From assembly GCA_035236585.1 (NCBI GenBank), contig CP141137.1, forward strand, positions 50,366,057-50,430,056: a DNA stretch of 64,000 nucleotides, given 5' to 3'. The notes under the pieces are model-generated. The model was not told where the DNA came from. It ran no database searches and was given only the letters and a program-made list of their open reading frames with translations. Origin of the DNA: Warburgia ugandensis (lineage: Eukaryota; Streptophyta; Magnoliopsida; Canellales; Canellaceae). The position numbers were made by a program, and so were the translations under genes. Of this stretch, positions 7,427 through 59,327 are shown piece after piece. Numbering within the stretch: position 1 is the stretch's first letter; each line of letters starts with the position of its first letter.

Positions 7427-8088
7427 TAGTTTTAAGGGTTTTTTTTGTAAAAATACCATTATATTTTGACATTTTAGCAAAAAAGTCCAATATTTTCTCA
7501 ATTTTACAAATTTGCCATTAAGTTATCATGAGCTTTACAAAATTACCCTTCTTCTAGTTTTCCATTCGCTTTCCCTATTAGTTTTTACTAAACCCTAATA
7601 TTATCCTCGTTTAACAGACCTCCTACCTTATGCAACAGATTCCCCCTTCTAGCAGCTACTGTTTCTAGCTTGTCAACCACCGACAACCCCTATTTTTGGC
7701 ATATCCCACACCCGGGGAGTGCCCCCCGCCAACCAGCCCACTTCCAATCCACTCTCCTTGATTCTCGATGCATGATCGGTAGCCCTTGCCCTATGTGCAC
7801 CCTCACCTAATCAGCCGTGTTACCTTGCCTCTCCCTCACAATCCCTATTTTGGATGCCTCCCCTCGGGGCACACACATTTGTCTCTGAGGTAGTTGGTTT
7901 GTTAGACAAGGATAATATTAGAATTTGATAAAAACTAGCAAGGAAAGAGGATGGAAAACTAAGAGAATGACAATTTTACAAAGTTTTATGTAAACTTAAT
8001 GGAAAATTTATAAAATATAAAAAGTGTTGGACTTTTTTGCAAAAATGCCAAAATGTGATGGCATTTTTGCAAAAAAGCCTAGTTTTAA
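7427..8088. mobile_element. MULE-like element, copy B, with 9-bp TSD
   Basis: The element body is 7436-8079 (644 bp). It is flanked by a perfect 9-bp direct repeat TAGTTTTAA at 7427-7435 and 8080-8088. The two ends are inverted repeats of about 190 bp: the left starts GGGTTTTTTTTGTAAAAATA and the right, reverse-complemented, starts GGCTTTTTTGCAAAAATGCC. The 9-bp duplication with very long TIRs is the hallmark of Mutator-like elements. No transposase ORF fits, so it is non-autonomous. The ~260-bp interior (about 7625-7890) is much more GC-rich than the ends and differs from the interior of copies A and C. Confidence 0.85.
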
Positions 8089-8559
8089 TCGTTTAATAAA
8101 CAAGCCTAGCAGGCAATACTATCAAGTCATATCAGCTCTTCCTCTCCAAAAGAAAATACCATCAAAGTCATTCGGGCCCTTACTAGGAAGATGCATCTGC
8201 AATCAAGATGGCTGAATTTTGTACGGCATCAAAGGGCAAATTGCATTGTTTGTTTTCATTCTCAAAGAGATACCTCAACTACAAGATATAGCCCAACAAA
8301 ATTAACACCTCCTGTCTTGATTTGATGATGAGACCTAAACCCAGCTACACCATTCAAGACCCTAAGATCACTGGATCAAAGTAAATTCAGCAGCAATGGG
8401 ACAGATCTACAATATCCTGTTTAGAGTAACATACTTGATGATGTCCCGCAGGCCCCACTTGGATCTTGGACCATGGAACAAGGTGACAATCACTGTCTTT
8501 TTGGATTTGACTTTTGCTTAATCATCTCTGTCCCCTAATGGACGGCTAAACTCAAGAGC
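8089..8559. other. Intergenic sequence before the RS-like gene leader
   Basis: No gene motif on either strand. This is the likely upstream region of the plus-strand gene whose leader begins near 8.6 kb. Confidence 0.4.
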
Positions 8560-9837: not shown

Positions 9838-11870
9838 GTAAGTCATGGTCAAGTAATGGATGCATGAGCACTGAAACTAGCAAATTTTTTTTTATTGGAC
9901 CAGCATATTCCAACCATAATTGAGAAATTTTGAGGGCTGTTACCTGCTTATTAAGAAGAATGCCTTCTTCTGATTCACACACTGCAAAAATGGCCTATTA
10001 ACCTGTTTGTGCCCAACTGTGCAGCCATTTATTTGGCTGACAGTTTAGGCAGTTGCCATCAACAGTTCTGGTAGGTGCACTGGTGACCATCAACATTAGT
10101 TTATGGATGTCATCTTGTAATGGAGAAGTACCACCTTTCCACTTAATGTTTCAGTCTTGAGGAGCTTCTTGCACAGATAAATATATCACTGATCATAATG
10201 CTTGACAATCATCTACTTTTTGGAATGGGAAAATTCCTCATCCCACTGTGCTGTTTAAAGAAGGGGCTTTTACGTATCTTCTTTATTTAATTGTAGCGTT
10301 TTCTGTTTGATCACTGCATCATTATTTGTAATGTGGGAACTCAGTGTACTAAACAGAAAGAGAGTGTGCAAAGCAAGATTCTTCTTTCTTATTCTTAAGC
10401 AAGGTCCGTGCTAATCGTCTTATTCTTCATTTTGGTGGTTTCACAGATCTTCATATGGAGAAACTATATAGGTTTTCTCTTTGCGAGTAAGGCGGGTGTG
10501 GGTTACATATACCACAAATCTTTGCATAAGGTAAGAAACCTGATTTCATTTTCTCATTTTTGTTTATTCTTACATATAAAGATAGATGTTGAGCTCATCG
10601 CCTCTATGAACTGAATTGCTCCTTTGTAAATATTAAATGGATTACATCTCTAGAACTGTAGCATTGAAGTAGAACTCACTTGTAAGTCCACAAAATCTTG
10701 TGTATAAAATTGAGTAAGGGCATAATTTAGAGCAAAACTAGGCACTTCCATTATGTAATTGAATGTCTCTATTGCTAGATTGTGCAAATATCTAGTCATC
10801 CATATTGATATCTTTTGGGATGTCTATGATACCTGTGGCAAATATAATAAAGTGTTTGAATTGGGTGGTCTAGAAATTTGATAAGGAGGAATGCTTTCTA
10901 ATACAGAGCATAGCTCCAGCTACGATATTGTTGGGTGCTCAAAAACACAGTAAGGGGGGTTTATTTAACGACACATGTGTCATATGTTCTGTGATATCTT
11001 GCATGATATCTGAGATATGTAATATTTGTTCTGTGATATCTCTGATGCCTCAGATATGAAAAACATGCCTCTCAGATATCATAGTTAAATAAGCTGCATT
11101 TCTGACATATGTCATGATATCAACCAGCACCTAAATATTCATCAATGATCTGGGCCATTCATCTGTGTCATGATATTCTCAAGGCCTAGGGATTTTATGG
11201 TAAAAGTACACGAGATGATAAAAGTACACGAGGAGCCCAGTTTCTTCAATGATTTGGGTCATTCATCTAAACCATCTTGCCACCTGGGCTTTCCCTTGCC
11301 TTTTGTGAAGTGCTATTGCTACTGCTGGTGTAACATAATCTTTACATAGCTTATGGTTCTCTTTTTGAAATGATGAACCCTCACAATGCAATAGACACCT
11401 TGTATAATACTAATCACCGTTGTGTGCCTGTATCTGTTACATTTGATGAAGTTTGGAAAGGTCAAATTGGATGGACTATGAATAGCTTATGCTGCGTATC
11501 ATCAGAGATTTTCTGAATAATTATTGAATAGAATAAATAAATTCCTTCTTCCACTAGCAAGAAGTTATCCATACACTGTCAGACTAGCAAAGCAAAAGGG
11601 CAGTCTAAGAAGTAATATGCATAGGACTGATTTACATCAAACCCCGCCACAGCAAATGCTATTGTTAACAAATAAACAAACAAAAACCAGAAACAAAATG
11701 AAAAATAATGTGTACAAATTTGGGATGCACAAGCATGGAAATGATTCTGGACCTCGTAAAAACTTCATCTCGTAGTATGTACAACAGAGTTGTAGATTCT
11801 CAATATTTCTGCTTTGTCAGCTTGAAAGAAGAGCTTTTGGAAGCAAAGTGGGCAGTCAGTCCACTGTCAT

Positions 11871-12396
11871 AGAGTAGTGTGGTCGGAGGATGGGGATGAA
11901 ATATGAAGATAATCCATCTCCGTCCTTGTGCTTCCAATCAAAACAGAACATACACAAATGACACGTTGGACTAGATCTAGATAATGCAAATTTTGTGCAT
12001 GAAGTGATCCATGTTGCTTGTTTCACCATAGTGACAAGACGCTACTGTTGAGAAAATCACTAGAATGATTTGGGGATGGATCTCTGATAAATGTAAAATC
12101 CTGTACCTGTAATGGGAGGTGGATCAGGGTCTCTAGTAGCATGCAATATAGTAGTCCCAGAAGTCAGAGGTATCAATCTGCAAATCTCCGATGCTATGCT
12201 ACTTGCACTTTGAGCAGACAAATCCTGCACCAATGAAATCAAGGATGAGATTGTGCAAACGAAAAAAACAAAAGGAGAAACCAGAAATGTACCATATGAG
12301 TACCTTAAACATAATGGCATTTGCAAAAAGTGTGAGAGTCGTGAACATGGTGTAATTGATGGGAGAAACAATTGCAGTAATAAAAGTATCCAATGC
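11871..12396 (-). pseudogene. Captured 3' exons of a NIPA-type Mg2+ transporter gene
   Basis: Plant NIPA proteins are multi-TM magnesium transporters. Exon 12396-12304 (93 bp), bounded by TTTTTCAG and GTACTC, encodes a block with ALDTFITAIVSPINY and TMFTTLTLFANAIMFK, close to the conserved ALDTFNTA..SPIYYVMFT..T..AS.IMFKDW region. Exon 12234-12107 (128 bp), bounded by GGTGCAG and GTACAGG, encodes DLSAQSASSIASEIC and LTSGTTILHATRDPDPPP, matching the following segment of the family. A third block near 11937-11871 reads WKHKDGDGL..YFI.ILR, resembling the C-terminal tail. The 5' two thirds of the gene are absent. Splice sites are preserved, so it was captured as genomic DNA. Sequence down to about 11500 may be its 3' UTR. 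Several family residues are changed, as expected of a decaying fragment. Confidence 0.65.
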
Positions 12397-12618
12397 CTGA
12401 AAAAATGCAGTCATCAGATAACAAAAACTGAAAGATATTAGCATGCCAAGTAGGGTGTGAACATTTCACTTGTATGGTGTACTTGAGGTTTGTTCTTTAA
12501 CCATCCAGACAAAGTGTATATCAGAAGTAGTAGAAGATAAGCAATAAACTAGAAAAGATGCATTTAGAATCCAAGATGCATTAGATTGGTATAACAGGTG
12601 AAGATAAGCAAGAAACAA

Positions 12619-12856
12619 AAAGGCAAAAACTGCATATGCCTCACGCCTATCAAATTCTTTGCGAAGTTGTTGTGGAGAGAGCCTGTAGTGATCAAGGCCA
12701 TCATTGTATTTGATAGGTTCTAACACTTCCAGATCTCCACCAATGACCCAATTTCCAGCTGGAGTAATTACCTCTTCAACATAAGGTAAACCAGGTGCAG
12801 TTGTTCCCCATGTTCTGGCAATTCTTTCTTCTTTGTTATGCTTTTATATTTGAACT
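12619..12856 (-). pseudogene. Captured internal exon of ATP sulfurylase
   Basis: ATP sulfurylase makes adenosine 5'-phosphosulfate from ATP and sulfate in plant sulfate assimilation. The minus frame reads KHNKEERIARTWGTT, then APGLPYVEEVITPAGNW, VIGGDLEVLEPIKYNDGLDH and YRLSPQQLRKEFDRREA.AVFAF. This is the conserved region just before the QLRNPVHNGH ATP-binding motif. It begins after a good acceptor (CTTCTGCAG at 12857). The Tyr codon expected before KHN is TAA, a premature stop, and homology ends abruptly after VFAF at 12619, before the catalytic motif. So it is a non-functional internal piece. It lies ~220 bp upstream, on the same strand, of the NIPA fragment, an order that no normal gene has. 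Confidence 0.85.
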
Positions 12857-13381
12857 CTGCAGAAGGGAACAAATAGCATTGCATGCAAACACTAGATCAG
12901 AGATGGCTAAGATAGAGAAAAATAATAAATAAATAACAGTAAAACACTTCAAAAGGGAACAAATAGTGCAGATACCATAATCAAAATTTCAAGTTGGGGA
13001 ACGAAGTCATGAACCAGTCAAAACAGCTCCTAACCAAAAATTATATTTGGAATGATGTTTATGCATCTAAAGCTTTTATTCAATGAACCATAGAGCATAA
13101 GCAATGAAGTAAAAAGTGAACCACTATAGCTTCGATGCATCTAATGTTTTAAATAGGTCAAAATGCATTGACAAAGACCTCTTTCTTTTACTAACATAGG
13201 AAGTCGAATAATTCCTTGACCAATGAGCTGATCAACACGAAACAAAATAAAATAGAAAGCTCAAAATCAATTAACATGAACAAGTTCATCTACAGTGGAT
13301 GTACCCAAAAATTCAACCACTCAACAGAAACAATCAAAACTCCCATTACCCATATAAATAAAAAACAAATGTGATACTAAC

Positions 13382-13900
13382 CAATTCCTCTCTTTGCTAT
13401 CAGATACATGTCTTCATCTAGTGAAGGCACATTGAGGAAGAAAATGGTTAATATGTTGGATACCAACTATTAGCAACAATAAGACAGATGTCATTGATTA
13501 GATTCCAGGTACAGATACAAAGGAAAAGAATCAAATAGGTTAGTAGAACAATAAACTAGTTACAGAAAGATTATACCATTGCTCATGCACATAACTAAAA
13601 CAGAAAACAGAGAATAAATAAAATTGGGACTATTCTTTCTATGATTAAAGAGAAAAGCATATTCATTCAAATAAATCATCAAAATCAAAATTCAGAGATT
13701 TGATCCAATGAAGTGCTGTGGAAAAGCATGATACTCCACCACTTCTGAATCATTCAATTCTTCATTTTCACCTTCCATGGAGTGCCAGAGGAAATTGTAG
13801 ATCAGATGGATAGAAAACATACTGGAAGCACCTCCTAATCCATGGAGCTCATATTCCACACTTACAGACATAGGCATGTCCAACACTGATAGAAAAAGAA
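13382..13900 (-). other. Possible further captured exons, unrecognised
   Basis: Two minus-strand blocks inside the element look codon-like but match no family I know. At 13433-13382 the frame reads NVPSLDEDMYLIAKRGIG and ends at a GTTAGT donor. At 13886-13692 a frame includes VEYELHGLGGASSMFS and ends at a stop. The acceptors are weak. They may be decayed captured exons or chance frames. Confidence 0.25.
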
Positions 13901-14127
13901 AACCATAGAAGCTACATCAGCCAATACAGTTGAGAACATATTGTAAGATGGGAGTAATAGTAAAAATGGAAAAGAAAACAATCTGATGGTTGCCAAATTA
14001 CAAGTTAGCTGAATGGAGAATAGTTAGCTGAGGACACACCATAACTCCTAGGAAAGGGAATGACATCTCTGATATTGTCAACGCCCGCTTGAAGCCGAGA
14101 CTAAATCTTGAGTGCTGGATAGTTCCC

Positions 14128-14270
14128 TTTGCTTGTCGGGACCTGGATCGAGTGTCTGGCGAACTGTTCCTCTTCAGCGAACTGCTCTCCTTTGCTCATA
14201 GGGACCTGGATCGGGTGTCTAGTGAACTGCTCCTCTTAAGAGAATTGCTCCCCTCTGCTCCTCGGGACCT
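14128..14270. repeat. 63-bp tandem repeat (2.3 copies) inside the PIF-like element
   Basis: Units 14128-14190 and 14191-14253 are both 63 bp and share GGGACCTGGATCG, GTGTCT and GAACTG.TCCTCTT; a third partial unit runs to ~14270. A period divisible by three and higher GC than the rest of the element suggest it came from coding or regulatory host DNA, but no family is recognised. Confidence 0.8.
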
Positions 14271-14409
14271 TTATGGGAAGAAGCAGACGCATGTTTCTCT
14301 CTCTCTCTAAAAAAACATCTATTTCATTTGATTTTCTCTCTTTGAAAAACAACACATTTTACATTGGAGGGGGGATTTGGCATGTCTACAATATCATCAA
14401 ACATATCAG

Positions 14410-14663
14410 GCATGACAAAGTTAAATAAAGCTGATATCTAACATATGTCGAAGATATTGCAATTAAATAAAATTGATATCTCACATATGTGGAAGATATT
14501 GCTGTTAAATAAACCCATTACCTCACATATGTAGAAGATATCGCAGTTAAATAAACCTGATATGTCACATATGCTGAAGATATTGCAGTTAAATAAGGTG
14601 CATTTATGAGATATGTCATGATATCTCAGAAATGCCAAAGATGTGCGATTAAATAAACCCCCC
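14410..14663. repeat. Subterminal ~42-bp repeats of the PIF-like element
   Basis: Four to five direct units, each with GATATCTCACATATGTGGAA, GATATTGCAG and TTAAATAAA, end in the terminal TTAAATAAACCCCCC. Similar but less regular blocks lie at 10954-11130. Arrays of subterminal motifs near the TIR are typical transposase-binding regions, though that role is inferred here. Confidence 0.8.
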
Positions 14664-15039
14664 TAAAACCAGGGATTTGGTAAGTTTGATTCGTCTATGG
14701 AGAACTTATTAGATAGTCAAGATATCCATCAATTATTTGACTAGTTTGAGACCCAATGAAAATGTCCTACTTATTAGCTGGTGAAACTTGATGCTACCTC
14801 TGATGTCACATTTTTTATTTCGTTGACATATGAGGCTACAACAGCAGGGGTGATTCCCTCATTAATTACGTTAGTACTTCTGAAACTTTATATGCATACA
14901 TAAAAGTAACTAGATGTATGTTGTGTTTGCACTTTGAAAATAATGTAGCTTATAATCTCATAGGACTTAGTTTTGTTATTCCTATTCCCTAAGGTTCATA
15001 TGTCAATAGGAAGTTAAAAACTCTAAAAAAATTCTATAA

Positions 15040-21059: not shown

Positions 21060-22625
21060 AAGGGCACGCATAAAAGCAATTCAATCTAGTAACATGCATT
21101 ACATGGACTTATTACTCTGCAGGATTTGACAGAATAAAATTGTAGCTCTTTAAGTTTGCAAATATCTGGGGACAATAATTATCCATGGATAACTCAATTT
21201 AAGACTGTTAACAATGCTTAAAAGCAATCAAACCAAGCAAAAATACATGGTCTACGTGTGTGACTGAAAATCCACGTGGGGTCAGCTCATCTAACAATCC
21301 AAATCATTTATTTTCTGCTGGTCCTGCACCAGTGAGGCCATGATCTGTTCCAGGGAATCATTCTAGCCGTTACTCTTCCAAGGTACAAGTGGGACTGGGT
21401 TAAAACGTAACTGTGTCATAGCAGGCAACTAAAAGATATTTCCTTTGCATTGAATCCAAATCTCCATTTGGAGATGGTTAATAAGCTTTATCCTTGCTCA
21501 CTCCTCTCTTATTAGCTGGTTGAGTTCCCAAAAATGAGCTGTCTGAAATGAAGCTCTTGATATTTCAGGAAGATTTATCATCATAAGATCTTGGAAACAG
21601 AAGGGACTACAATTAAGCTTTACTAATCCTCCACATCGCAGGAACAAAGAGCCTGCCTGAACCATCTTATTCCTGCTGTTGAATGCAGTTCATATGTAAC
21701 TCATCCTCAGACTTCCACTTCTCAAATTAACCAAGAATATACAGAAACTATATCAACACAACTATATATAGGAAATAAGACTTACAGATAAAAGAGCAGA
21801 ACACCCAGGACTTACAAGCCAGGACAACATTATAGGGTTGTGTCCCACCTGCCAATTCTAGCGGTGCTGATTTGATTTCTGTATGACTACAGTGTGAAAA
21901 TGCATATGGTTGGAGAATCTCATGAATAAGAATGCAGTAAAAATATTCACGAAAATGAGCAGAGATGGATGAGAATAACATATCAAAGAGTGATTATTTT
22001 ATAGCACACAAGCTTAAAGTTGGTGAAATCAAGGTAGTCGGCAGTAGCAGTAAACAAGAAACAACTAAAATAGCGGTGCAGCAGGCCTCTAGAGTAACAT
22101 AACTATTTTATATTTGATAAGAGAGGTGTTTTATGACAAGAATGGAATCAATTACTTGGTATTTCGCTCTTATTTGTGCGTCCTAACAGAAATAATTTCT
22201 CATTTGTGCTCCTTGGCAAAAGCACTATTCAACTAAAAACCAATTTCTTTATCATCATGAATGACTGAAATGAATTACAAAACAAGGTGGCAGCTTCATA
22301 ATGCCGGAAAGGAATATTATATGCTCTAAGGATATAAGATGCCCAAGAATGGAGTCAGTATATGCTAGAAGGAACACAATAAGCACTAAACCACAAATAC
22401 AATTACATGTTAGTGTGATATTTGGAATAACAGATAAAACAAGATGATATGACCGGCACTACTAATACAATAACATGCTTGTGCACAAGAACAAATATGA
22501 GATGACAGTTGATATACCCATTTTTGCTTCCCTCTGATTCAGTCATCTTTTCTTGTTGCGAAACAAGGCTTGGAATAAGGAATTATGTCATGGAAATGTG
22601 GGAGCCTGCAAGATATTTGACAGGC
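21060..22625. repeat. Segmental duplication, copy 1
   Basis: Shares many blocks in the same order with 26340-27790, including ATTACATGGACTTATTACT, AATATCTGGGGACAA, CTCATCTAACAATCCAAA, GGTTAATAAGCTTTATCCTT, AAAGAGTGATTATTTTATAG and CCCTCTGATTCAGTCATCTT. By eye, identity is roughly 75-80 percent with many indels, so the duplication is old. No coding region is evident within it. Confidence 0.85.
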
Positions 22626-23904
22626 TTCCCAACACAAACCATCGCTATGAGCCAGTAACGTTTCAATATCGTTCCAAATCTATAATGGTCGATCTAATTC
22701 CCATGGAATGCTGTAAGGTGTCCATGATTTCTTCACATTATAATCCTTCAATACGCCTACCTCATAATTACTCAAAAACTATATATCTACATCCCACTAA
22801 CACAGTGACAAACATATACTAGGGATCCTTGCCAAGCAAATCAGAAGATAGCACCAAACTGAACTTCTCCTCCCTCAAATCAAGAGGAGGAATAAATTTT
22901 CCAAACATATCTGGTTGTCAATCAGACAACAGGCACGACCCCATTCACGAATGTATGTTTCCATCATTGTTGCCCTGGAAAACCATGCCTACATCTGGGA
23001 AAGGAACATCTCCGATCTTTCTCCATCAATTTGTGCCTTGACTAAAAACTTCACATTCCATGGTGTGCTACTGCTGCTAGATCCTCTAGTACAGGATAGA
23101 AAATTCTTATGACTTTATATTCATTAACAACAAAGGCAAATCCAGAACAGATTTTGGAATAAGCATCAAGCTCGGGTTCTAGGAGGGTCACATATTAGCC
23201 AATAAGAGGATTAGAGAGGTAGACGGGATCCTGGTATTCACGTTAAGGCATAACAAACCATTACAAGCACCAACAATTTGGGCTTCGGGGGAATACACTC
23301 CTCATAGAACTAGTCTCTTAATTGGATGGAATTGAATGGCTGGGAGAAATCATCGTATTCTAGAAAGTAGAAACCATGGTAGGAGTCAACAAGGAAAGAT
23401 TGGTTGGTTCTGGTGCTGAGAAAACGAGTTCGATTTTGGAGCATCAAAGTTGTGAGCCAGGGTTCTGACTATGACATACCCAGCTGCTGCTAGAGAGAGG
23501 GATTTGATGATGGTCCGTAAGCATCCTCATCCCCGTAGTTGTATGTTTCTGTATCTTCTTCGCATTACATGTTAAATTTGCTTCCGCAGTTCAATTTCTT
23601 GGTTTTCCAAGGCCCTTGAGGGTTGTCTTACATCAATGTTTCCCATAGCCTAGGAACAAAAGCAATTAAAGCAGCAGGGTGTATCATCTTGAGACAGAGT
23701 CAGTAAAGATACAACATCACCAGCAGATAAAAGCGCGTTGCTATTCTTGACCAGTCTTTTTCTCTAGTCAGTTGCAGGGAAAAAGAGTCAACTCTGCTTT
23801 GGCTTGGTCAAGTACTTGGATGAAAGGCTAATTCATGCAACTCGTTAACAGAAGATGTCGATAAAAATAAACTTTGCCAATTCAGGCAAAGAGACAATGT
23901 GTAG
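22626..23904. other. No recognisable gene
   Basis: Single-copy sequence within this window. Open frames at 22553-22822, 22829-23041 and 22915-23112 have no family motif or splice-consistent continuation that I can support. Confidence 0.45.
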
Positions 23905-26339: not shown

Positions 26340-27790
26340 GTAGTAAAAGGCATGCACAATAGCTAGGGAGAAACTAACATTACATGGACTTATTACTAAC
26401 TCTGCAGTGAGAAAAATTAAATTCCAGATCTTAAGTGTGAAAATATCTGGGGACAAAATGATTATTGTTGTCCACAAATTGTTGTCCAAAGCAAAAAAGC
26501 AATTAAACCAAGCAAAAAATACAGGGATTTCATGTGTGACTGGAAACCCAAATGGAGTCAACTCATCTAACAATCCAAACTAATTTTCCGTCATGATCTT
26601 CTCCACGAAATCATCCTAGCCTCTGCTCTTCCAGGGTGTAAATGGGACTGAGTTAAGGAGTAAGAGTATGACAGAAGGCAACTAAAAATATTTCTTCCTT
26701 GCGATTGAACCCAAATCTCAATTTACAGATCGTTAATAAGCTTTATCCTTACTTCTTGCAACATAAGCTGGTTCAGTTTTCACAAAAGAGCTGTTCTAAA
26801 ATTGAAGCTCTTGATATTTCAGGAAGATCTATCATCAAAGATCTTGAAAAAAGAAAGGATTTGAATTAAGGGTTCATCATTCTCCATGTCTCAGGAACAC
26901 AGACCTTGCCTGAACCATTTAGTACTAGTGTTGGACGCCATTCAGATATATTTTATCTCATACTTCCATTCACTGGTCAAATTAACCAAGAACAAACTGA
27001 AAATTGTGTCAACACCACTATTTAGTACTGTCAGATGAGTACAGTATAAAAAGGCAACCGGTTGAAGAATCTCAAGAATAAGAATGCATTAAAATATTCG
27101 CGAAAATAAGCAGAGGTGGTTGAGAATAACATTTCAAAGAGTGATTATTTTATAGTACACAAGTTCAAATTAGTGAAATTAGAATTAATTGTAGTAGTAA
27201 ATAAGAAACGACTAAACTAGCGGGCAGCAGGGCTCTTAAGTAGCAGGACTATTTTATATTGTGATAAAAGATAAAGAGTTTTATGACAAAAATGGAATCG
27301 AGTACTTATTACTTCGTTCATATTTGTGCTTTGTAATATAATTCATTTCTCATTTGTGGCAAAAGCATTAACCAACTAGAATCCAGTTTCCTCATCATCA
27401 TGACTGAAATTAATTACAGAACAAGGTAGCATGTTCAACGTGCCAAAAAAGGTACATAGATCTATTACATGTACAAGGAAATTAGATTCCTAGGCTTGGA
27501 GATAATATATGCTACAAGGAATAGAATAAGCGATAAACCACTAACACATTGACATGCACCTTGTAGAGTGTGAGCACTAATAAGAAACATAAGAATATGT
27601 CAAAAGCAGCACTAATTACTAATAAATAACATGCTTGTGCAGAAGAACAAAGACGAGATGATGGTTGATATAACTATTTTTGTTTCCCTCTGATTCAGTC
27701 ATCTTTTCTAGTAGCAATACAAGTCTTGGAAGTTATGGCATTATGCCATGGAAACTTGGGAGCGCACAGAGACATCTTAGAGGCTTGTAC
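26340..27790. repeat. Segmental duplication, copy 2
   Basis: Diverged direct copy of 21060-22625, about 5.25 kb downstream in the same orientation and slightly shorter through deletions. Collinear blocks run from ATTACATGGACTTATTACTAA near 26379 to TTATGCCATGGAAA near 27745. Confidence 0.85.
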
Positions 27791-28206
27791 TCCTTGTCTT
27801 TTGGAGCATAAGACAGAAACAAATCCCGCCACAATGCATACCGGTGGATTTGTCATAACATGAATGTTCCTCTCAAAACTAAGCTAAGAGTCTAAGAGCC
27901 ATAAAAACTACACGGATCCATCACCATATCAGAACCCAACATTAATTTCCAAAACTCTTCCTCCCACGGATCCATACCTTTCATGTATTTTGCCAGAAAG
28001 TTATACAGATAAGAAATGAATGCTTGACACAGTAAATAAAAATAAGTTGAATTTACAGGATATAACTTGATTTGCAGAACAAATTATCTTCACTTAAATG
28101 GATATTGAATATTGATGCAAAGTACACATCCAGTATTTCTTTAACAACTCTCGCTTGATTTGGTTGTTGATGTTAGATTATAATACTTTCTAACTGCTTT
28201 TGCCAA

Positions 28207-28690
28207 ACAGCCTCAACAACAATCATGATCCCACAAATACATTATGAAATCCAACAAAAAAAAAAAAGAAAAAAATTCATCTGTGATGCCAAAACGAAAA
28301 AGAAAGCATGCATCCAACGTTTAAAAACTGAGCTTGTTTATGGAAGAACAGATAATTCCGATGCCCTTTTTGTTCCATAAGGAGAAGAAACAGCGCAGCA
28401 AAACCTATCTACAAATATTACTGGAAAACTCTCGATCAAAGAAGAGATCGCATCGATCTAAACAACAAATGGTCGAAACATTTACACCTCTCACGAATAA
28501 AAAGAAACGAAATAACGCATCAACAAAGCTAGTGAGAAAGGCAAAGGAAAGAACACCCAGAAATCAACAGTTCGATCAAGAGCCGTGACTTCTTAAAAGA
28601 TGAAAAAAAAAAAAAATTGTCACTGGGCAAGATGATGGAGAGATTTTTGCAGGACAGAAATCCATATTTTCTTATCATCCAACCTTCCCA
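28207..28690. repeat. 481-bp tandem duplication, unit 1
   Basis: Starts ACAGCCTCAACAACAATCA and ends CATCCAACCTTCCCA. It is about 97 percent identical to the adjacent unit 28691-29171, differing mainly in A-run lengths and a few substitutions. Both units contain the same 84-codon plus frame (28334 and 28815), which has no family motif. Read on the minus strand, the sequence is T-rich with short purine islands, like a 5' UTR or first intron. Confidence 0.95.
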
Positions 28691-29171
28691 ACAGCCTCAA
28701 CAACAATCAAGATCCCACAAATACATTATGAAATCCAACAAAAAAAAGAAAAAAAATTCATCTGTGATGCCAAAACGAATAAGAAAGCATGTATCCAACG
28801 TTTAAAAACTGAGCTTGTTTATGGAAGAACAGATAATTCCGATGCCCTTTTTGTTCCATAAGGAGAAGAAACAGCGCAGCAAAACCTATCTACAAATATT
28901 ACTGGAAAACTCTCGATCAAAGAATAGATCGTATCGATCTAAACAACAAATGGTCGAAACATTTACACCTCTCACGAATAAAAAGAAACGAAATAACGCA
29001 TCAACTAAGCTAGTAAGAAAGGCAAAGGAAAGAACACCCAGAAATCAACAGTCCAATCGAGAGCCGTGATTTCTTAAAAGATGAAAAAAAAGAAAATTTG
29101 TCATTGGGCAAGACGATGGAGAGATTTTTTCAGGAAAGAAAACCATATTTTCCTATCATCCAACCTGCCCA
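28691..29171. repeat. 481-bp tandem duplication, unit 2
   Basis: Immediate direct copy of 28207-28690. The offset is 481 bp downstream of the poly-A indels. The near identity indicates a recent event. At its right end, sequence passes into unique DNA at CCCAAATTCAGGGG. Confidence 0.95.
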
Positions 29172-29851
29172 AATTCAGGGGAACAACCCCTTCCCTTCTC
29201 ACCAAAACCTCCAAAAATCAATGAAACAAACAGGGGGTTGCGTGCGAACCAGTTGAAAGGGTCGAATCCAGGGAAATCAATAGAATGGGTAGCGTAGGAA
29301 AACCAACAGAATCAAGAATCAGACCAAACTGTTTTCCCACCTACTCATTCTAGTAACCTCCCAGGCTTCCTTCACCCTTTCCATAGCCCGCTCCTCTGTA
29401 CTCCTCTCCAATCGACTTTCCCTTTAAATATGGAATTTTGGTATAGATCCGGTGGCTTGCAGGACACGTTTAGCGGTTTTCCAAAACCGCTTCTCTTACC
29501 CACTGTTTTGACATACTGCCATTTTCCTACCGAAAGAATACGAGGAAAGGGCACAATCTTGCTTCACCAAATAAATAAGGTGGAAAGCACCGTAAAGTTG
29601 GCCTTCTTGGGAGCACTATTGAACTCACAGGAATGGCGTGTCCAGCGACCACATTTTCGGAGCCCACTCGTTTTTCATGACGAGGTAAGATGACATGAAT
29701 CGTATCAATGTAAACGGTGCTTGAGATAAAAATCCTCCTCTTAACTCAAGGTTAAGTTAAAATTTTAATTAATACTAAGTTTGACCCTCTCAGGCTAGAT
29801 TTTATATTATTTAATTTTATATAAAAATATCATCGGGGACTACAAGGCCTA
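29172..29851. other. Possible minus-strand promoter region; no gene confirmed
   Basis: More GC-balanced than its surroundings. On the minus strand there is a TATA-like ATATTTAAAG at about 29423-29432, and the tandem duplication lies downstream of it. No coding exon can be assigned. Confidence 0.25.
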
Positions 29852-35950: not shown

Positions 35951-37460
35951 GATCCATCTAAATTCTATTTTAGACAAAATACTAATATGTACTCAGTTAC
36001 ATTATAGTCAAGTTCTCAAGGAGTAATATACTATGTTTAATTTCTTAGAAGCTCATTAATCTTTTTGTTTATAGAAGCACTCCACTTAGGATCTTTCATA
36101 GCTTTTGAGGAGCAAGATGGCAATTGAGATGGTTTCAAAGGTGTATATAGTGGGAGATAAGATTTGGACTAGTAGAAGAATTGATTGTAGACCTAATGAT
36201 TATAGGGTCAATGCAAGAGATAGGTGTAGGGCATAGAAGAAGTGGTAGGACTAATTCCTCTCTTAGAGTTTATAGCTCTTATGCCTTTGGCTTCTAGTGT
36301 TAATCCTTAAGAGTGTTCCTTTATGAGTGTCTTCACCAACTAGCATTACTTGCACTTTCGTGTCACTCAATTTGGTCAGCATTGGGTATTTTCGAGCAGC
36401 GATGCTTACACCCATTCACATTAGTTCATCCAAAGTTCCTTACCCTTATGTACGAATTTTTGAATAAGCCATCTTCCTATCAAGTTTAAGGAGTCAACTA
36501 AGCATCTCAGCGGTGGGATTGAATACCTAGATCAAATCAGAGTTCACGCCACCTGCCTTGAACAAAAAGAAGGTGTAAGCCATAGGTTGCATATAAGCCG
36601 CTGGGTCGCACAATAGAAGAACACCCACTATAAAGATGCACACTTCTCCATTTGAAATATGAATCTTCATTGGAGTTTTTTTGCAGTAGTTATGACCAAT
36701 AGCCATCAACAGTTAGCTCATTGGTAAGCATTAGTAGGGGATGATGAAGGTGAGAGTATAGGAATTGGAAAAAGATTAACCAACAAAGTTATTGCAACCC
36801 TTCTTCTTGAGGCAATATAGAGGAAGATGCACAAGTAGTTTTAGATGAGGGACTCCAAAATGAAAGGGTGAGATTGTGCGATGATTGGGGTTTTTAGAAA
36901 TAATTTTTGAAAATTTATTTAAAAATGATTAAGATCAGTAAAAATAAAGAAAAAATATCTAAAAATATACCATAGATATTAGTTTCCAAAAACTATCCTT
37001 CAAAGCCTAGGCATTTTATCCAAATTCCACACATAGCCAAAATAAGTATATAAGATCAAGCACTACATGACCCACTAGTCACAACCCAAACAACCTTGGA
37101 TGATACTTAAATTAAATCAAATCCTCACATTTGTAACGAGGTTTATTGCCCCATCACATCATTATTCCAAATATTTGAGGTTTTTATTCTAGATAGAATA
37201 AGTAACTAATTTTACTATCATACTTTTACTAGTTCAAAGTTTCTGCACTGCCTCAACTCTTTACTTACATTCAGAAGATTGACTTAAAATTGTTGGTATC
37301 AAACCTCAATAATGATTTAAACATCAAAATTCACGATAAATCACATAGTATTACAAATCTTAATCCAAAAATGTACATCACTAGAAGTTGTATCCCTCAA
37401 GATTGACTGACGAACCATCGATGTTCATATCATAATTTGGTAACTTTGCACATAAACAGA
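35951..37460. other. No confident feature (possibly more copia remnant)
   Basis: Degenerate sequence between the copia remnant and the solo LTR. Open frames such as 36527-36709 minus match no retroelement domain that I can name. Confidence 0.35.
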
Positions 37461-39752
37461 TGTTAAGTGTTCAATTTTGGTCAAAATACTTTTAATTTAG
37501 CTTTCAATTAGATCATTTAACCATTCAAAATTGCAAATTTTAGCTTGATTTTGAATTTAACTCCAATTGACCATCCAAACCTTAATTTGTCAAAATCAAC
37601 GGTCAGATGATCATTAGAGCTCATTAAATGACTAATGTACTTTCAAATGATTCTAATTTAGTCTTTTCTTTTGTAGATCAACCAAAAGATGCATGGACAG
37701 CTGCAATTAAAAGTTAATAATGCAGATCATCTTAAAAAAGATTGGATGGACCAGATCACCCATGGAGATAGATGGAATAGTTTTTTAAAGAATAATTGAG
37801 CTTAATGTGGAAATCATGGACAAAATGAAAATAATATGGAGAAGGCAACTTTAAAGTTTGGAGGAGTTTCCAAAAGGGGGCACCCAATTTAGCAAGGAAC
37901 AAGAAGAAAGAGGCTTGAATACCCATTTCACTCTCTTTCCCCATTCACTCTCTTTCCTCTTCATACACCTTCTCTCTCTCACACACATCTTTCTCCCTCT
38001 CTTACCTTTCCCATCCCCACATCATGCAACTGCATCTACCCCCACTTCTCTTTCTTATTACTTCTCTCTTTCTCTCTTTCCCTCTTTCTTATTCTTCTCT
38101 TTCTTTCTTTCCTTTCCCATCCCCTTACCTTTCTCTCTTAACCACCAACTTCCTCTTCTTCCCTTATTCTCCTCTTCTAAACCCATTCCTAAAAACCGTA
38201 GGAGGGGAGCCTCTTCTCCCACTACTTCTCTACCCTCCTTCCTATTCTCCCATTCTTTTCTCTTCTTCTACTCCTCTATTCTCTCTCCCTCTTCCCATTC
38301 TCTCCCCTTCTTCTTCTTCTCTCTCTCCCACGGCTTCCCCTTCTTCTCTTTTTCTCCTCACCTCCATTCTATTCTCTATTCTCCTCTCCCCCTCCTCTTC
38401 TCTCTTCTCCTCTCATCCTTTCTACATATCTCTCTCCCTCTATCTCTACTCTCACGTTCTCTCCCTCTCCCCCATTCTCTCCTCTTTCTCATCCCCTTCT
38501 CCTCTTTCTCCACTTCCCATAACTCTTCTTCTCTACTCTTTTTTCCTCTTCTCTTGCCCATCTATCTCTCTCAATAGCACCATAGCACCACCTTGCCCAA
38601 ATCGCACCAAGCACGGTAGCGCCCAACTCTCTCTCCATCCTTTTCCCAGTCTCACCTTTGTTTCCCGCTATTCCCTCGTCTTTTTCTCCCTCTCCCTCTC
38701 CCTCTCCCTCTCTCAATCTCGTTCTCTCTCTCACTCTCGTTTGTTCCTTCTTTCCATCTGACCAGTACCCATCACCGAATAGACGACACCCAACGTCTCT
38801 CTGCTCTATCTTCTCCACCAGACGCTCCAGCACTGATCGGACTGCCCAGGTTTTCCTCGCCATCCAACATCCCATAGGAAGAAAACCCAGATCGGGTTTT
38901 CTCCCATCCTGTGCCCCTCTCCTCTTTCCTCTCCTCCTTCCTCCTTTCTTCCCTTCCCTTCCTTTCCTTCTCTTCTCCCTCCTTCGGCTTTCTTCTTCAT
39001 CTGGTTTTTTCCTTAAAAACCAGATTTTTAAAGAATTTCCATTTCTGCCCTTGGTCATTTAAAGAAATCTCATGTCTGTCCTTTTTCAAAAATTACATTT
39101 GTGTCCCAGTTTATTCCGATTCTGTTTTCTCCGTGCTTTTGCTTATCCAAGAACTGCCTAATTTCTACCAGATCAATTAAGGTCTAACTCAATTAACAGG
39201 TTAGCCTTAATCAAACCAAATCTTTAGTTTCTCATTTTTTTGTCTTCTAATTTCAAATTAATTTTAAAGAGTCATTATTAGGACATCCCTAGATCTAATT
39301 AACGTTTCTGATCTTTTATCTGAAATTCAAAAATTAATCTGAGCCGTCCAAATCTTAAAATCGCAATTAACCCAGATCTTGATGATTTTGAAGAATCTGA
39401 TAAATCTGACTGGTGGATCTCTAATCAAGGATGTGATGAAGACATATAAGAAGGCTGATCATCTATCAGATTTAAAGATTTGAAGATTTTGACAGTGATT
39501 GATCTAGGGAAGTTTTTTCTTATTATTTGATTTTGTTTGTTTTCTTTAAGAACTGAAAATTCTGTAATTTTGTTGGATATGATCTCGATTATCATTTCAA
39601 TAATTCTAGTAATTTTGAGTGATTTATTTTTAATTTTAGATAATTAAATTTTATTGAAATTCCTACTTTTTAAATCAAGTCCTCGTAGGATCGACCCGTA
39701 CTTGCATAAGCTACACTACAATAGCTCGTGCACTTGCGGTTAAACATCAACA
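37461..39752 (+). mobile_element. Solo LTR related to the Athila-like element
   Basis: It starts TGTTAAGTGTTCAATTTTGG and ends CACTTGCGGTTAAACATCAACA, the same termini as the LTRs at 48777-50815 and 59328-61355 but in the opposite orientation. Internal blocks also match (GACCATCCAAACCTTAATTT, GACCCGTACTTGCATAAGCT). It is 2292 bp, longer than the 2.03-kb LTRs, mainly through a longer pyrimidine tract (37930-38560 and 38660-39000). Flanking 5-mers ACAGA (37456-37460) and ACAAA (39753-39757) match at 4 of 5 positions. No internal domain follows, so it is a solo LTR left by recombination. Long Ser/Leu/Pro frames here are pyrimidine-tract artefacts. Confidence 0.85.
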
Positions 39753-41793
39753 ACAAAACTAACATCTCTTGCTTTTGTTTGATCATAGACATAGCATGAC
39801 CTGCACCAGTCCTCATGGGGAAGAACAAATTATACTAAATGAAAGGTCTCATTACCGTTCCAAACATACGAAGTTTTACCTTAGGTAGGTATTAAATTTC
39901 CTTTTCAAAATGCCAGTGTCCAACTGCACTCCTTGCACAACAGCTAGAGGTGTCTCACAATATGCCCTAGGGTAGGCTCAACTCTTATGAGTGGCCTAAT
40001 TTTAGGCTAAACACAATTCTTTAGATTTACCTAATTTTTATTCATTAAAACATTTCACATTTCCTATAAAAATTCATATAGAGTCATGATTCAATTACTC
40101 CTCACACATGACTCCAAAGAGTCTAAACACAAATTTGATCACATATTCATGGTATGGTCACATAAGTACTCCCTAGAATGAAAAAAAAAAAAAAAAAGTT
40201 GCCTCAATTAAGATATCATCATTTGCAAATCAACATATAATAGAAGGGTACTTATAAACAAGTCTTCCAATAATGTTTTTGGCAGTTCACCCTTTTCTCA
40301 TTTTCAAGGCGTGGAAGTAGTCACCATAAATATCTTTATATCTTGAAAACATTTTAACATGGGAAATTGTTTACAAAATTGAAGTTAATTATAGAATTTG
40401 GATCAAATCAAACATGAGTGCACATTTGTAATTTTGCAATTGATAATGAACTCCAACAAGCATACATCTAAACTAGATCAACAGTGAGAATTTCAAAATA
40501 GCCTTAGGTGGATGCATATAAGCAAAATAAGATTAAGGATGTAATCTCCAACAAGTCTATAGATGGAGCACAAATGATTACATGAAAACGATGGTGTAAA
40601 TCAAAACAGATCTATAGATGGTGCATACATGAACTCATGAAATCAACAGTGTGCATGATTTGAAAACTTAGATCAATGAAATGTGTGCATATAGAGACAA
40701 GTTTAAAACTCAAAGTCAAAACCCATTTTGGCTATCATTCATCAGTCGATTGGTTGGCTTCTTGAATCAATTGGTAATAGCAATAATTTCATCAACACTA
40801 GTTTTTCTCTTCATGAATTTTCCTAAAATCCAACATAAATGCTAGTTATCCAAACTTCTTTTTAGATCAAAGCTCATTTAATATTTTAGCAATTTCCATA
40901 ACTTTCTTACCTTGTGATGCTTTTCAATTATGTTACATTGATTGTCTATTATCATTGCACCATTCTATAAAGTCTCCCTATGATTTAGATCTCTTTCAAG
41001 ATTTTGCTCACTATGACCATGTTATATTTGCGAGCAAAGTTGCTAAAAAATTAAGATGATTCTCTATCAATAGGTTCTACGAATTCATAGGTTCTACGAA
41101 TTCACACCATATCTTCTCATTGGTTGTGGCTTTTCAAAGATTAAATATGTTATTTCTAGCTTTCCAAAGATCAAGTCCCACAACTTCATAATCTTGAAAA
41201 TCAACTTTCAAAATTGGGAACTAGAAAAGCTTCCAAATCTCTTTGATGGAACCAATGGTGAAATGAAGAAATAAATCAAATCTAAGGAATATTTCCAACC
41301 GAAAAACAAAATTGCACTAATTTGAAGGCAACCCATAAAAGAAAATCTCATTTTTCACACTTAAGCAATATATATTTTGCTAAAAACTAAGCTTCTTGCA
41401 ATTTCAAAGCCCAAATTAAAAAGAAAAAAGAAAAATAAAAAAAAAGAACAAAGCCTTAACAAATACATGGGGATTTTGATGTTGCAAAAAGAGAAAGCTA
41501 GAGAGAGAAAGTTAGTGAGTGAGAAAATCAATGGCAGCTTTGAGCTATTTCAGCCATTCAAATTAAGATCAATGATCAATTCATGGGTTTGGAATGATTT
41601 TAGGGTTTCATTTTTCTTGATTTATTTTCTAGAGAGTGGCAAAGATTTAGGAAGAGGGGGCATTTAGTCCAAATGAGGTCAGCCACTCTAGCTAACCCAT
41701 ATTTGGATATGTCTGGTTAAAATAATGGATCCTAGAAATAACGTTTTTGGAATATTCCTATTTGAAAATTGCCTTTATTCTTGTATTATGCAA
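39753..41793. other. No recognisable gene
   Basis: A/T-rich intergenic DNA. Small items are a poly-A run at 40181-40197 and a 17-bp tandem duplication of ATAGGTTCTACGAATTC at about 41078-41111. The frame at 41377-41667 is Lys-rich low complexity without a motif. Confidence 0.4.
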
Positions 41794-42953
41794 GAGTTTT
41801 TTTTACAAACATACCATTAAATTTTGGCATTTTTGCAAAAAAGTTCGACATTTTTTTAGTTTTGCAAATTTGCTAATAAATTTTCGTGTGCTTTACAAAA
41901 TTGCCATTATGTTAGTTTTCCACCCTCTTTCCCTGTTAGTATTTAATTTAATTTTATATTACCCTTCTGTCTTCAGATGAAGGTGAACAAGAGGACTTTG
42001 TGTGTACTTTTTTGCATCATAAATAAATAAAAATCTTTGATATTGATCATGCTAGATATAAGACATTAAGATGAAGAAGACCTAAGTCTTAGATTTCAAA
42101 TTTTCACTCAAAAAGGTATAAAACGAAGAGCTTAAATCTACTAGTTGCTGTTTGTGAGAAAAGTAATAGTATTTTGCTTGTGTTTAAACTTGAATTTTTT
42201 TTAAATTTATTGTGCTTTGTATTGATCCAAAGAATTAATTAGTTTGTGTACATAGTCACACCCTTCGGAAGCTAGCCCATATGCAGGGCCTGAAGAAGGG
42301 GTAGAAGATAAAGGTCAACATTACGCAGCTTTACCTTACAATTTTACACGAGGCTGTTTCCACGCCTTGAACCCATGACCTCAAGGTCACACAACGACAA
42401 TTTTGCTATTGTGCTAGGGTTCCCCTTCATCCTTTAACAGTATATGCAGGCTCAAAAATTTTATAACACAATTTGTTATTTTCATTTTTTGAAAGAGTTT
42501 AAAATCAATTTTTAGTGAGAAGTCAAAGTTTAAATTGTTGAATTCATTGAAGAAGCTTAACATGTACTATTGACAAGTTGATGAACATGACATATTTGAG
42601 ATTGAATGTCTTATTATTGGTTGGTTTTAGTTGAAATTTAACTATACCATTAGATTTCTTGTTACTAAATTGTATTATATACTAAATTTCAATGAGACTT
42701 TCCATGGAGAAGTCATTGAACTTAGTGTCCAAAGTTGTTAACTTAATCTTATCTATGTATGTGAGGTAGCAGATCTGTTAGACAAGGGTAATATCGAAAT
42801 TTTATGAAAACTAATAAGAAAGGAGGATGGAAAACTAACAGAATGGCAATTTTGGAAAGCTCACAGAAACTTAATAGCAAATTTGAGAAACTAAAAACAC
42901 GTTAGACTTTTTTGCAAAAATGTCAAGATGTAATGAATTTTTCCTAAAAAACC
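41794..42953. mobile_element. MULE-like long-TIR element, copy C
   Basis: Ends GAGTTTTTTTTACAAACATA (left) and, inverted, GGTTTTTTAGGAAAAATTCA (right) align with the TIRs of copy B and continue for >120 bp (GGCATTTTTGCAAAAAAGTT against GACATTTTTGCAAAAAAGTC). The interior is shared with copy A (AAGTCTTAGATTTC, CGAAGAGCTTAAATCTACTA, GTATTTTGCTTGTG). No clear 9-bp target duplication remains. A SINE has inserted at about 42250-42430. Confidence 0.75.
42250..42430 (-). mobile_element. Au-type SINE inside MULE-like copy C
   Basis: The minus strand reads GGGGAACCCTAGCACAATAG, TGTGTGACCTTGAGGTCATG, GGTTCAAGGCGTGGAAACAG, GTAAGGTAAAGCTGCG and CCTGCATATGGGCTAGCTTC. A and B boxes are recognisable. It is absent from copy A, so it inserted after the family spread. 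No clear target duplication. Confidence 0.85.
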
Positions 42954-43222
42954 TACAAACAAAAATGAAAATATATTTTTGCCCCATTTTCCTGTATTTC
43001 CATCTAGTCTTGTTTGTGTTTCTTAAGAAACGACTTCTTTCCTTTGTTTGCAGTTATTTTTCAGGAAAACACAAGTATAAGGGAAGGGGAAATCTGCTGC
43101 AATATAGGTGGTATATGCAGAACATAAAAGCACACGCAATCACATTCAAAACAGGTAGATACATAGGCCTATAGAATGTTGACAAGGACCAACGCCATGT
43201 TGAGAGAGAGAGGCGAATGTAT

Positions 43223-45453
43223 TCAATTCTCAATGCGCTTAACAAGTAGAAGCAAGTCTTCAGACATCTCATACTTGGCGACAGAGGATGACTTGGAGAG
43301 TTCTTCCAGCTTCTTCGAGTATATTTCAAAGACGCCGTCGACAATTTGATCTCCGAAGTGTTTGCTTATGAGTCCCTCCGTCGCTGCTCTGAAATGCCTA
43401 CTAATAATTCTAGCACTGCTTGGATCTCCGACATTTGATGGCTGGTACAATATTTCCATTCCTTCAATACTGAAACATCCATTTCTTTCTACCACCTCCT
43501 TGACCTGCGAGGCAGATGGGATGTACACGGGAAAGTTGAAGGAGTCCACCGCGTCTTTATTTACTAGACCCTGCAATCAACACGAGTCTCAACATAACAC
43601 CTATGTTTTCAGAGAGTTCTACATCGTGGCCATCTAGGAAGTCACAGGGTTAGTTATTTGATCATGAGATAAAGGACCTGCAGATGAATGATTTGGATCA
43701 ACAAAAAGCACCATTTTTGTCATGCCCGTTCATCATGAGAAACCCACGTAGGTCTCACAGCATAAGCTGCACGTCAGGGGAAATTAAACGTCCGAAACAT
43801 GATATCAACATTGCTTGCTACTACGAGCCTACCCATTTCAACCTGCTGACCAAATGGTCTGGAACTTGTTCATCGTCTGCCGATGGGCCACTTTAGGGTC
43901 TTAAAGGTGCTGGTTGGTTCACAATTTCATTAAGCGCCCTTAGCTAGACAGAACCTCCTCCCTTAATTAATTAATACACTCGGGACGTTTGTGGGAGATG
44001 CCCATCTAAGGTTGGCCCCTAGAACATAGATGTTATCAATGGGCTAACTTTGACCATATGTCCGTAGCTGCCTATCGAATGTTAGGATCAATTCCCTTTC
44101 GAGCTTTTATGCCACTTCATACACTGTATATCTAAGGGCCCATTGGCTCTAATACTACCATGGTAGGATGATCCTCAGTAATAAGCAATACCTTTAATGG
44201 AAAAGGACATGATTCTTGTAAATCTTACATGATCTTTTAGGAACTGGTCGCCATGTCCTTCCAATCAAGATGAAGACCATATCAACAGAGTTGATCGATC
44301 ACGGAATAATTGGTTCTCCAAATTTTAACAAATGGTTATTAGATGATAAAAAATGGCAGCCTCAGTGCACAAGCTCCTGTGTATGCGGTGTCCGAGAAAG
44401 GGGCAGATCGCATGGACCACAAAGGTCAATAGTATGCAACGCCTTGAACTCATGATCGCAAGATCACATGACAACTTCAAAGGCATTAGATGATGCGAAA
44501 TGATAAACCGAGGCTCTTTAAACAAGCCTCAAATGAGTCTGATTAGTAAGTGCTACCAAATCCTCTCTTGCCGATCACAACAAATCAATAAATAAATAAA
44601 CGTATATGCATTACCTCATCACCCATGTCATTGAGACAGCATTCCAACTGGTGGAAGAGAAAAGCTAGAGGGAAATCTTCGGGACGGCTCCCACTTGGCC
44701 GGCAGCCGATAGTGATTGCCATCAACCCACCGGCAACCATCTCTTGTGCTCTTGCAGACAAGAAATGCTCCATATCCTTGGCTAATTGAGCTGAGTAGGC
44801 ATCAATAACTTCCTTCGGCGCCCCGACGTAAAAAGTTCTTCCCTCGTTAAATGCAGGAGAATTTTGGTCTAGCACCTCCCCAGGCACCTCCGAGAGCCAA
44901 TGAAGGGCAAAGGAAGAGTGAACGAAATGAAGAGAGGCCTTCGGAAACAGTCGGCCATGGAAAGATCCTGGCATGCCAGCCGCAAAGTATCGTCTATCTG
45001 AAGGAAGAGAGATGAAGAGTGTGTTGAAATCATTCGTTCTGTGGTCATTAAAGAACACCTGAAATTCCGGTTGGCCGAAGTCAAGGCCATGGGATTTATA
45101 CTTGATCTCCACCGCTTCCAATATATTGTCCACGACCATGAAGGTGATGGATCCGACGGAGCACCCAAGATCTGCAATTCGGAAGACATCTGAAGGACGA
45201 ATTTCCAACTTTTCTTTGATGAAGTTGTCTATCAGGGCCTTCATCCCGTCAAACGCCGCTCTCTACATGAACATTCGTTCCATGAGTCATCCTTATTAGA
45301 TAAAAAGGAGGATATTTTGCACTGACCATTGTCAGGTTATCATGCATCCAATCCCCACTAGGAAGGAGAGAGCAGATATATATATACCTGGTAAGTTGAA
45401 TTTTTGGAGTAACTATTTGGGCCATCTCCACCGTTCGTGGCGGAGGATTCCAT
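43223..45453 (-). CDS. SABATH-family carboxyl methyltransferase, three exons
   Basis: SABATH enzymes transfer methyl from S-adenosylmethionine to carboxyl groups of small acids such as salicylate, jasmonate, gibberellins or loganate in the cytosol. Exons: 45453-45388 (22 codons), 45262-44615 (216) and 43570-43223 (115 plus stop), all phase 0 with GT..AG introns; 353 residues, normal for the family. The start MESSATNGGDGPNSYSKNST has the GGDG.NSYSKNS.YQ motif. Next come RIADLGCSVG (SAM site), NDHRTNDFNTLF, GSFHGRLFPKASLHFVHSSF with ALHWLSEVP, and the C-terminal DSFNFPVYIPS and NGCFSIEGMEILYQP. Wording is closest, from memory, to the clade of loganate-type and Arabidopsis At5g38100-like enzymes; the substrate cannot be assigned. 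Odd: the usual GPN after LGCSV is GSI. Intron 2 (1044 bp) carries a SINE fragment. The frame is intact. Confidence 0.9.
44353..44490 (-). mobile_element. Au-type SINE fragment in SABATH intron 2
   Basis: The minus strand reads GTTGTCATGTGATCTTGCGA, TCATGAGTTCAAGGCG, then directly TACTATTGACCTTTGTGGTC, CACCGCATACACAGGAGCTT and GTGCACTGAGGCTGCC. The middle block (GGAAACAGCCTCTTG..GTAAGG) is deleted. It has the same orientation as the host gene. Confidence 0.8.
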
Positions 45454-48771: not shown

Positions 48772-48776
48772 TCGGT

Positions 48777-59321: not shown

Positions 59322-59327
59322 AAAACT

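Follow-up and report, generated by a model that had tools for sequence, protein, structure and literature searches.

In a 64-kb stretch of the Warburgia ugandensis genome (64,000 nucleotides of contig CP141137.1; hereafter the window), positions 10954-14663 form an element of 3,710 bp that carries pieces of two unrelated host genes, an ATP sulfurylase and a NIPA-type transporter, between perfect 15-bp terminal inverted repeats (TIRs). The left TIR, GGGGGGTTTATTTAA, occupies 10954-10968 on the plus strand; the right TIR, on the minus strand at 14649-14663, is its exact reverse complement. Directly outside the two TIRs stand the copies of a TAA target-site duplication, at 10951-10953 and 14664-14666, to which no strand applies; flank duplications of 2, 4, 5, 8, 9 or 10 bp were absent from the element ends. 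We scanned the whole window for TIR pairs that are spaced 200-8000 bp apart and flanked at both ends by the same trinucleotide, TAA or TTA. The pair bounding the element was the sole perfect one of at least 12 bp, and lowering the threshold to 10 bp brought the number to two. In first-order Markov simulations of the window (n = 40), a 12-bp pair arose in five and a 14-bp pair in one, 14 bp being the longest TIR length counted in the simulations as against 15 bp in the real element. The rest of the window was also checked for a relative of the element; its strongest match, 31 bp with 80.6% identity near 25.9 kb (E 0.20), has no adjoining TAA and was rejected as probable chance.

The ATP sulfurylase piece is a 238-bp stretch of exon, recognized by similarity, on the minus strand at 12619-12856. 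Read from 12856 to 12619 it gives RVQI, a stop codon, KHNKEERIARTWG and, at its far end, AVFAF, which corresponds to an exon of ATP sulfurylase (PDB 4maf, E 2e-36). In Pfam, the open reading frames (ORFs) covering it matched PUA_2 above the cut-off and the ATP-sulfurylase domain below it. Proteins of the APS2 type reached up to 94% identity, over 53% of a 145-residue query in which the ATP sulfurylase and NIPA pieces were joined. The 3' splice site preceding the exon is kept, as an AG at 12858-12857 in a pyrimidine-rich context. The borders of the exon were examined among the best 120 of the 695 matches to the joined query, using the 31 of these relatives that were under 300 residues and held the search motif (four relatives without the motif were all longer than 300 residues). 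Just upstream of the EIYKHN stretch, 23 of the 31 carry unrelated residues, which points to an intron border at this place, while six carry the usual ATP sulfurylase residues and two proteins begin there. At the other end all 31 extend beyond VFAF/IFAF into Q(L/M)RNP, where the similarity in the window stops, and the break therefore falls within an exon. Two changes mark this piece, namely the stop codon, which replaces the Tyr of the relatives' IEIYKHN/VQIYKHN, and a Tyr in place of an Asp that is kept in 112 of 113 relatives (the 120 minus seven that lacked the exact anchor motif or were too short).

The NIPA piece, also on the minus strand, consists of the three 3'-most exons of a NIPA6-type gene, still separated by their two introns. 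The first of these exons (12304-12396) has a CAG 3' splice site upstream and a GT donor downstream; it is followed by a GT...AG intron (12225-12303), a second exon (12107-12224), a second GT...AG intron (11977-12106) and the last exon, which runs through the stop codon (11856-11976). One ORF matched the Pfam NIPA family above the cut-off and another below it. Spliced together, the first two exons encode 70 residues, to which the nearest proteins were a Tasmannia NIPA6 (80% identity over the full length) and then an Aristolochia protein (77%). Both Tasmannia and Aristolochia are magnoliids. Removal of both introns joins the exons at the protein's own residues, with the second giving a Thr-Asp-Leu junction as in the Tasmannia NIPA6. 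After the first residues of the last exon the similarity resumes in another frame, indicating a frameshift, and residues invariant in all 64 NIPA relatives are altered in the element at positions 6, 14 and 47.

The two pieces are separated by a junction interval of 222 bp (12397-12618, minus strand), in which, as we interpret it, the ATP sulfurylase similarity is over and whose part adjoining 12397 is presumably a truncated upstream intron of the NIPA gene. Since the ATP sulfurylase exon is cut in its middle, the pair is a chimera rather than two intact genes that normally lie side by side. The relatives included no chimeric protein: the NIPA piece matched none of the 120 ATP sulfurylase relatives listed (of 695), and the ATP sulfurylase piece none of the 64 NIPA relatives. 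A chimeric protein conserved in other plants was rejected on these counts; in the top-scoring match, an Olea protein, part of a single ATP sulfurylase exon is repeated. On the other side of the ATP sulfurylase exon, 12857-14030 (minus strand) appears to be non-coding cargo. The part adjoining 12857 is probably an intron of the ATP sulfurylase gene ending in its 3' splice site, and the remainder could be intronic or captured DNA of another kind. An exon-like ORF of 74 residues at 13692-13916 (minus strand) had no Pfam match and a best E value of 0.21 in a search of PDB sequences; it could represent a third captured piece. The stop codon, the frameshift and the changes at otherwise invariant residues mark the cargo as pseudogenic, and no function is to be expected of it.

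The element contains 39 ORFs of at least 40 residues, of which we scanned 13 (the three cargo ORFs and ten others), and none of these 13 encodes a recognizable transposase. The cargo ORFs matched ATP sulfurylase/PUA and NIPA only, and the ten others together yielded just two Pfam matches, both far below the cut-off and neither of them to a transposase. An earlier note on this DNA, drawn from the letters of the sequence, had proposed an element with 15-bp perfect inverted ends flanked by TAA, subterminal repeats of about 42 bp and no transposase, which had moved host exons as genomic DNA. The ends and the repeats (described below) are as it reported, a transposase is lacking in the ORFs scanned, and the presence of two unrelated gene pieces with their introns inside a TIR element supports transfer as genomic DNA. 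Two of its statements need adjustment. The ATP sulfurylase sequence was said to be directly followed by the NIPA exons on the same strand; the strand is indeed shared and the 222 bp between them make the rest nearly right. Splice sites were said to be kept. The NIPA introns and the 3' splice site in front of the ATP sulfurylase exon bear this out; the junction, at which that exon breaks off midway, does not.

Both ends of the element are rich in repeats. The right end has an array of 42-bp tandem repeats (14419-14596, 4.2 copies), and each 42-bp unit contains TTAAATAA, the core that forms the inner part of the TIR. At the right end this core occurs six times with spacings of 42, 42, 42, 42 and 60 bp, the last occurrence being the terminus itself. 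The left end has one inner copy, which sits inside a 39-bp block (11083-11121, plus strand) that may be a relic of a buried right end. Its counterpart (14587-14625, plus strand), 38 bp from the right terminus, is identical at 36 of 39 positions and stands in direct, not inverted, orientation, and the runner-up match in the window reaches only 24 of 39. The whole left subterminal region (10969-11121) holds many GATATC/CATATG motifs and resembles the right end both inverted and direct. Further inside the element is a 63-bp tandem repeat (14125-14270, 2.3 copies), and a run of six Gs (14369-14374, plus strand) borders the right array on its inner side and is a weak candidate for a buried left end that has mutated; the plus strand of the window has three such runs, at 14369, in the left TIR and at 49612.

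Taken together, the TIRs, the TAA duplication and the lack of a recognizable transposase in the ORFs scanned argue for a non-autonomous Pack-TYPE element, the class defined by a TIR and a target-site duplication around host gene pieces and no transposase. We consider it very probable that the locus is a cut-and-paste TIR element of this kind, inserted at a TAA and carrying pieces of genomic DNA from two genes, one for ATP sulfurylase 2 and one of the NIPA6 type. Helitrons have neither TIRs nor target-site duplications, whereas both are present here. Among the superfamilies with TIRs, PIF/Harbinger duplicates TAA or TTA (PMC4423477; PMC2213677) and has TIRs of 14-25 bp (PMC2213677), a range that includes the perfect 15 bp observed. 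Autonomous PIF/Harbinger elements have a DDE transposase and ORF1, neither of which appeared in the 13 of 39 ORFs scanned, but non-autonomous ones can lack both. The TAA duplication, the TIR length and the precedent for subterminal tandem repeats lead us to prefer PIF/Harbinger, and an assignment as a Pack-PIF seems reasonably likely.

Several observations weigh against this interpretation. The TIR GGGGGGTTTATTTAA fits neither G(N)5GTT, a mining criterion for the ends of Medicago PIF elements (PMC2213677), its GTT coming one base early, nor GG(G/C)CC, the motif tabulated for rice Harbinger (PMC4423477). With its TIR outside both published motifs, the superfamily is provisional and the element is best called PIF-like; the same label in the earlier note thus holds for the duplication and the TIR length and fails for both motifs. 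Beyond the 15-bp TIR, the leftmost 247 bp and the rightmost 295 bp, when aligned locally, scored 74 inverted and 86 direct, each reached by none of 300 shuffles. As the direct likeness is as strong as the inverted one, the longer similarity partly reflects repeat and GATATC/CATATG palindrome content, with no clean long TIR. The candidate buried left end at 14369 lacks a preceding TAA, and its 17-bp match to the true left end was reached by 4 of 300 shuffles; as an end it was judged weak. Finally, the evidence comes from a single copy in a 64-kb window, and the exon borders and the frameshift in the third NIPA exon were drawn from comparison with proteins rather than with the parental genes.

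The misfit of the TIR also leaves some room for another superfamily, such as a CACTA relative with a 3-bp duplication and subterminal arrays or an undescribed TAA-targeting group, in which case the capture history would be the same. Complex subterminal arrays are frequent in CACTA elements (PMC4423477), which adds to this possibility. CACTA elements have CACT(A/G) ends, however, Mutator elements a 9-bp duplication and hAT elements an 8-bp duplication (PMC4423477), while the present element ends in GGGGGG and shows neither duplication. Its TAA duplication is the target of PIF/Harbinger (PMC4423477), and subterminal tandem repeats, there of 60 bp, are known in the Medicago PIF subfamily MtPH-A6-4 (PMC2213677). 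We therefore see membership in another superfamily as a possible but doubtful assignment.

If the element is a Pack-TYPE element as we propose, a transposase supplied in trans would recognize the TIR, perhaps together with its core repeated in the 42-bp array, and move the whole package. The gene pieces would have entered as DNA and not as mRNA, and the retained introns indeed argue against an mRNA intermediate. The likeliest route of capture would be two insertions from one family that lay next to each other and later moved as a unit, their inner ends being deleted or mutated; the second, unlinked gene would require at least one further join. This tandem-insertion model is reportedly the subject of a 2019 paper by Catoni. 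It was proposed for Pack-CACTA elements and extended to PIF (PMC8903248; the model also appears in PMC13317346), and it predicts leftover inner ends (PMC8903248). The 39-bp right-end block inside the left end, in direct orientation, fits this prediction in a way that is suggestive only, and the G run at 14369 fits it weakly; the block could alternatively have originated through ordinary spread of the subterminal repeats.

A different order of events would be that the chimera of ATP sulfurylase and NIPA came first, by ordinary genomic rearrangement, and that the ends later flanked it or took it in one step. The position of the two pieces on one strand and about 0.2 kb apart accords with this, and the data cannot order the events; yet no such chimera exists among the listed relatives, which are proteins and not genomes. 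We regard a pre-existing chimera as rather unlikely. A bolder possibility, which we put forward as speculative and on balance improbable, combines several of the features above. The element may belong to a TAA-targeting TIR group beyond the PIF/Harbinger motifs, in which the terminal motif is iterated in a 42-bp array, and may be scarred by two fused neighbouring insertions that packaged parts of two unlinked genes. If this were true, the scar of the fused insertions would make the element an intermediate in which gene capture by tandem insertion, as the model has it, could be read.

That the cargo acts as a functional novel gene, or as an antisense regulator of its two parental genes, is very unlikely. 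The intact NIPA splice sites speak for such a role, as otherwise does sequence similarity only, but the ATP sulfurylase exon starts with a stop codon, no donor is present where its similarity ends, and the last NIPA exon is frameshifted and invariant residues are lost. The idea that the ends and the TAA match by chance and surround a cluster of decayed pseudogenes is hardly credible, since despite the one simulation in 40 that produced a 14-bp TIR with TAA/TTA, the real TIR is perfect over 15 bp, the further likeness of the two ends was equalled in none of 300 shuffles, the 42-bp repeats with the TIR core adjoin the right end, and the termini bracket a chimera of two genes.

The window also contains other repeats and a gene. 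Direct copies of about 2.0 kb, 93.6% identical, at 48776-50815 and 59327-61355, are most likely the long terminal repeats of a retroelement of about 12.6 kb, and fragments matching them occur on the opposite strand at 37455-37779 and 39641-39754. A tandem duplication of 481 bp (28203-29172) is about 94-95% identical, and an older direct duplication (21097-22627 and 26378-27786) survives in two pieces of 73.5 and 76.1% identity. A dispersed repeat that has inverted arms is represented at 1-880, 7434-8095 and 41792-42955; these copies share about 74-81% identity and possibly form a family resembling miniature inverted-repeat transposable elements. A gene for a SABATH-type carboxyl methyltransferase (43223-45262, minus strand) was matched in two separate ORFs, the first two matches being to Coptis (57%) and Tetracentron (60%).

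The element described here provides a well-bounded TIR element with exons and introns of two genes in a flowering plant, with a NIPA piece of magnoliid-like affinity; our literature search found no paper joining Pack-TYPE elements and magnoliids. Given relatives of the element, the direct-orientation block in its left end could be used to test how such elements acquire genes.

Pack-MULEs and Pack-CACTA elements likewise hold host gene pieces between TIRs, often from several loci, and differ in having a 9-bp duplication or CACT(A/G) ends, neither of which the present element shows. For the PIF/Harbinger subfamily MtPH-A6-4 of Medicago, imperfect tandem repeats in one or both subterminal regions were described in 2007 (Grzebelus, PMC2213677). 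Its units are of 60 bp with the motif AAACNNCTTATT, and it was mined by G(N)5GTT ends, whereas ours are 42-bp units with the TIR core and the G(N)5GTT motif is lacking; host gene capture does not figure among the features given in that source's description of the subfamily. A close parallel comes from the Pack-PIFs that Gisby and Catoni (2022; PMC8903248) described in maize and rice, non-autonomous elements with TIR ends, mostly TTA/TAA duplications and pieces of host coding sequence. Their cluster 18 has TIRs of 15 nucleotides, and the four elements of its subgroup B1 carry pieces of two genes, a likeness set by length and structure and not by comparison of TIR sequences. Those pieces measure 163 and 58 bp and the elements 535 bp on average (PMC8903248), while ours comprise several exons with introns in 3.7 kb. 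Cargo of exons together with introns has a precedent in grapevine Pifvine-3, a PIF element reported in 2008 (Benjak, PMC2528002), and grapevine PIF duplications are likewise mostly TAA or TTA; in Pifvine-3 the cargo lies in a long 5' region and transposase and ORF1 regions are present, unlike in the 13 of 39 ORFs scanned here. The view in the earlier note that gene capture is much less described for PIF/Harbinger was thus overstated, as it has been published for both grapevine (PMC2528002) and maize (PMC8903248). With these earlier captures in hand, the present element adds to a documented type of gene shuffling.

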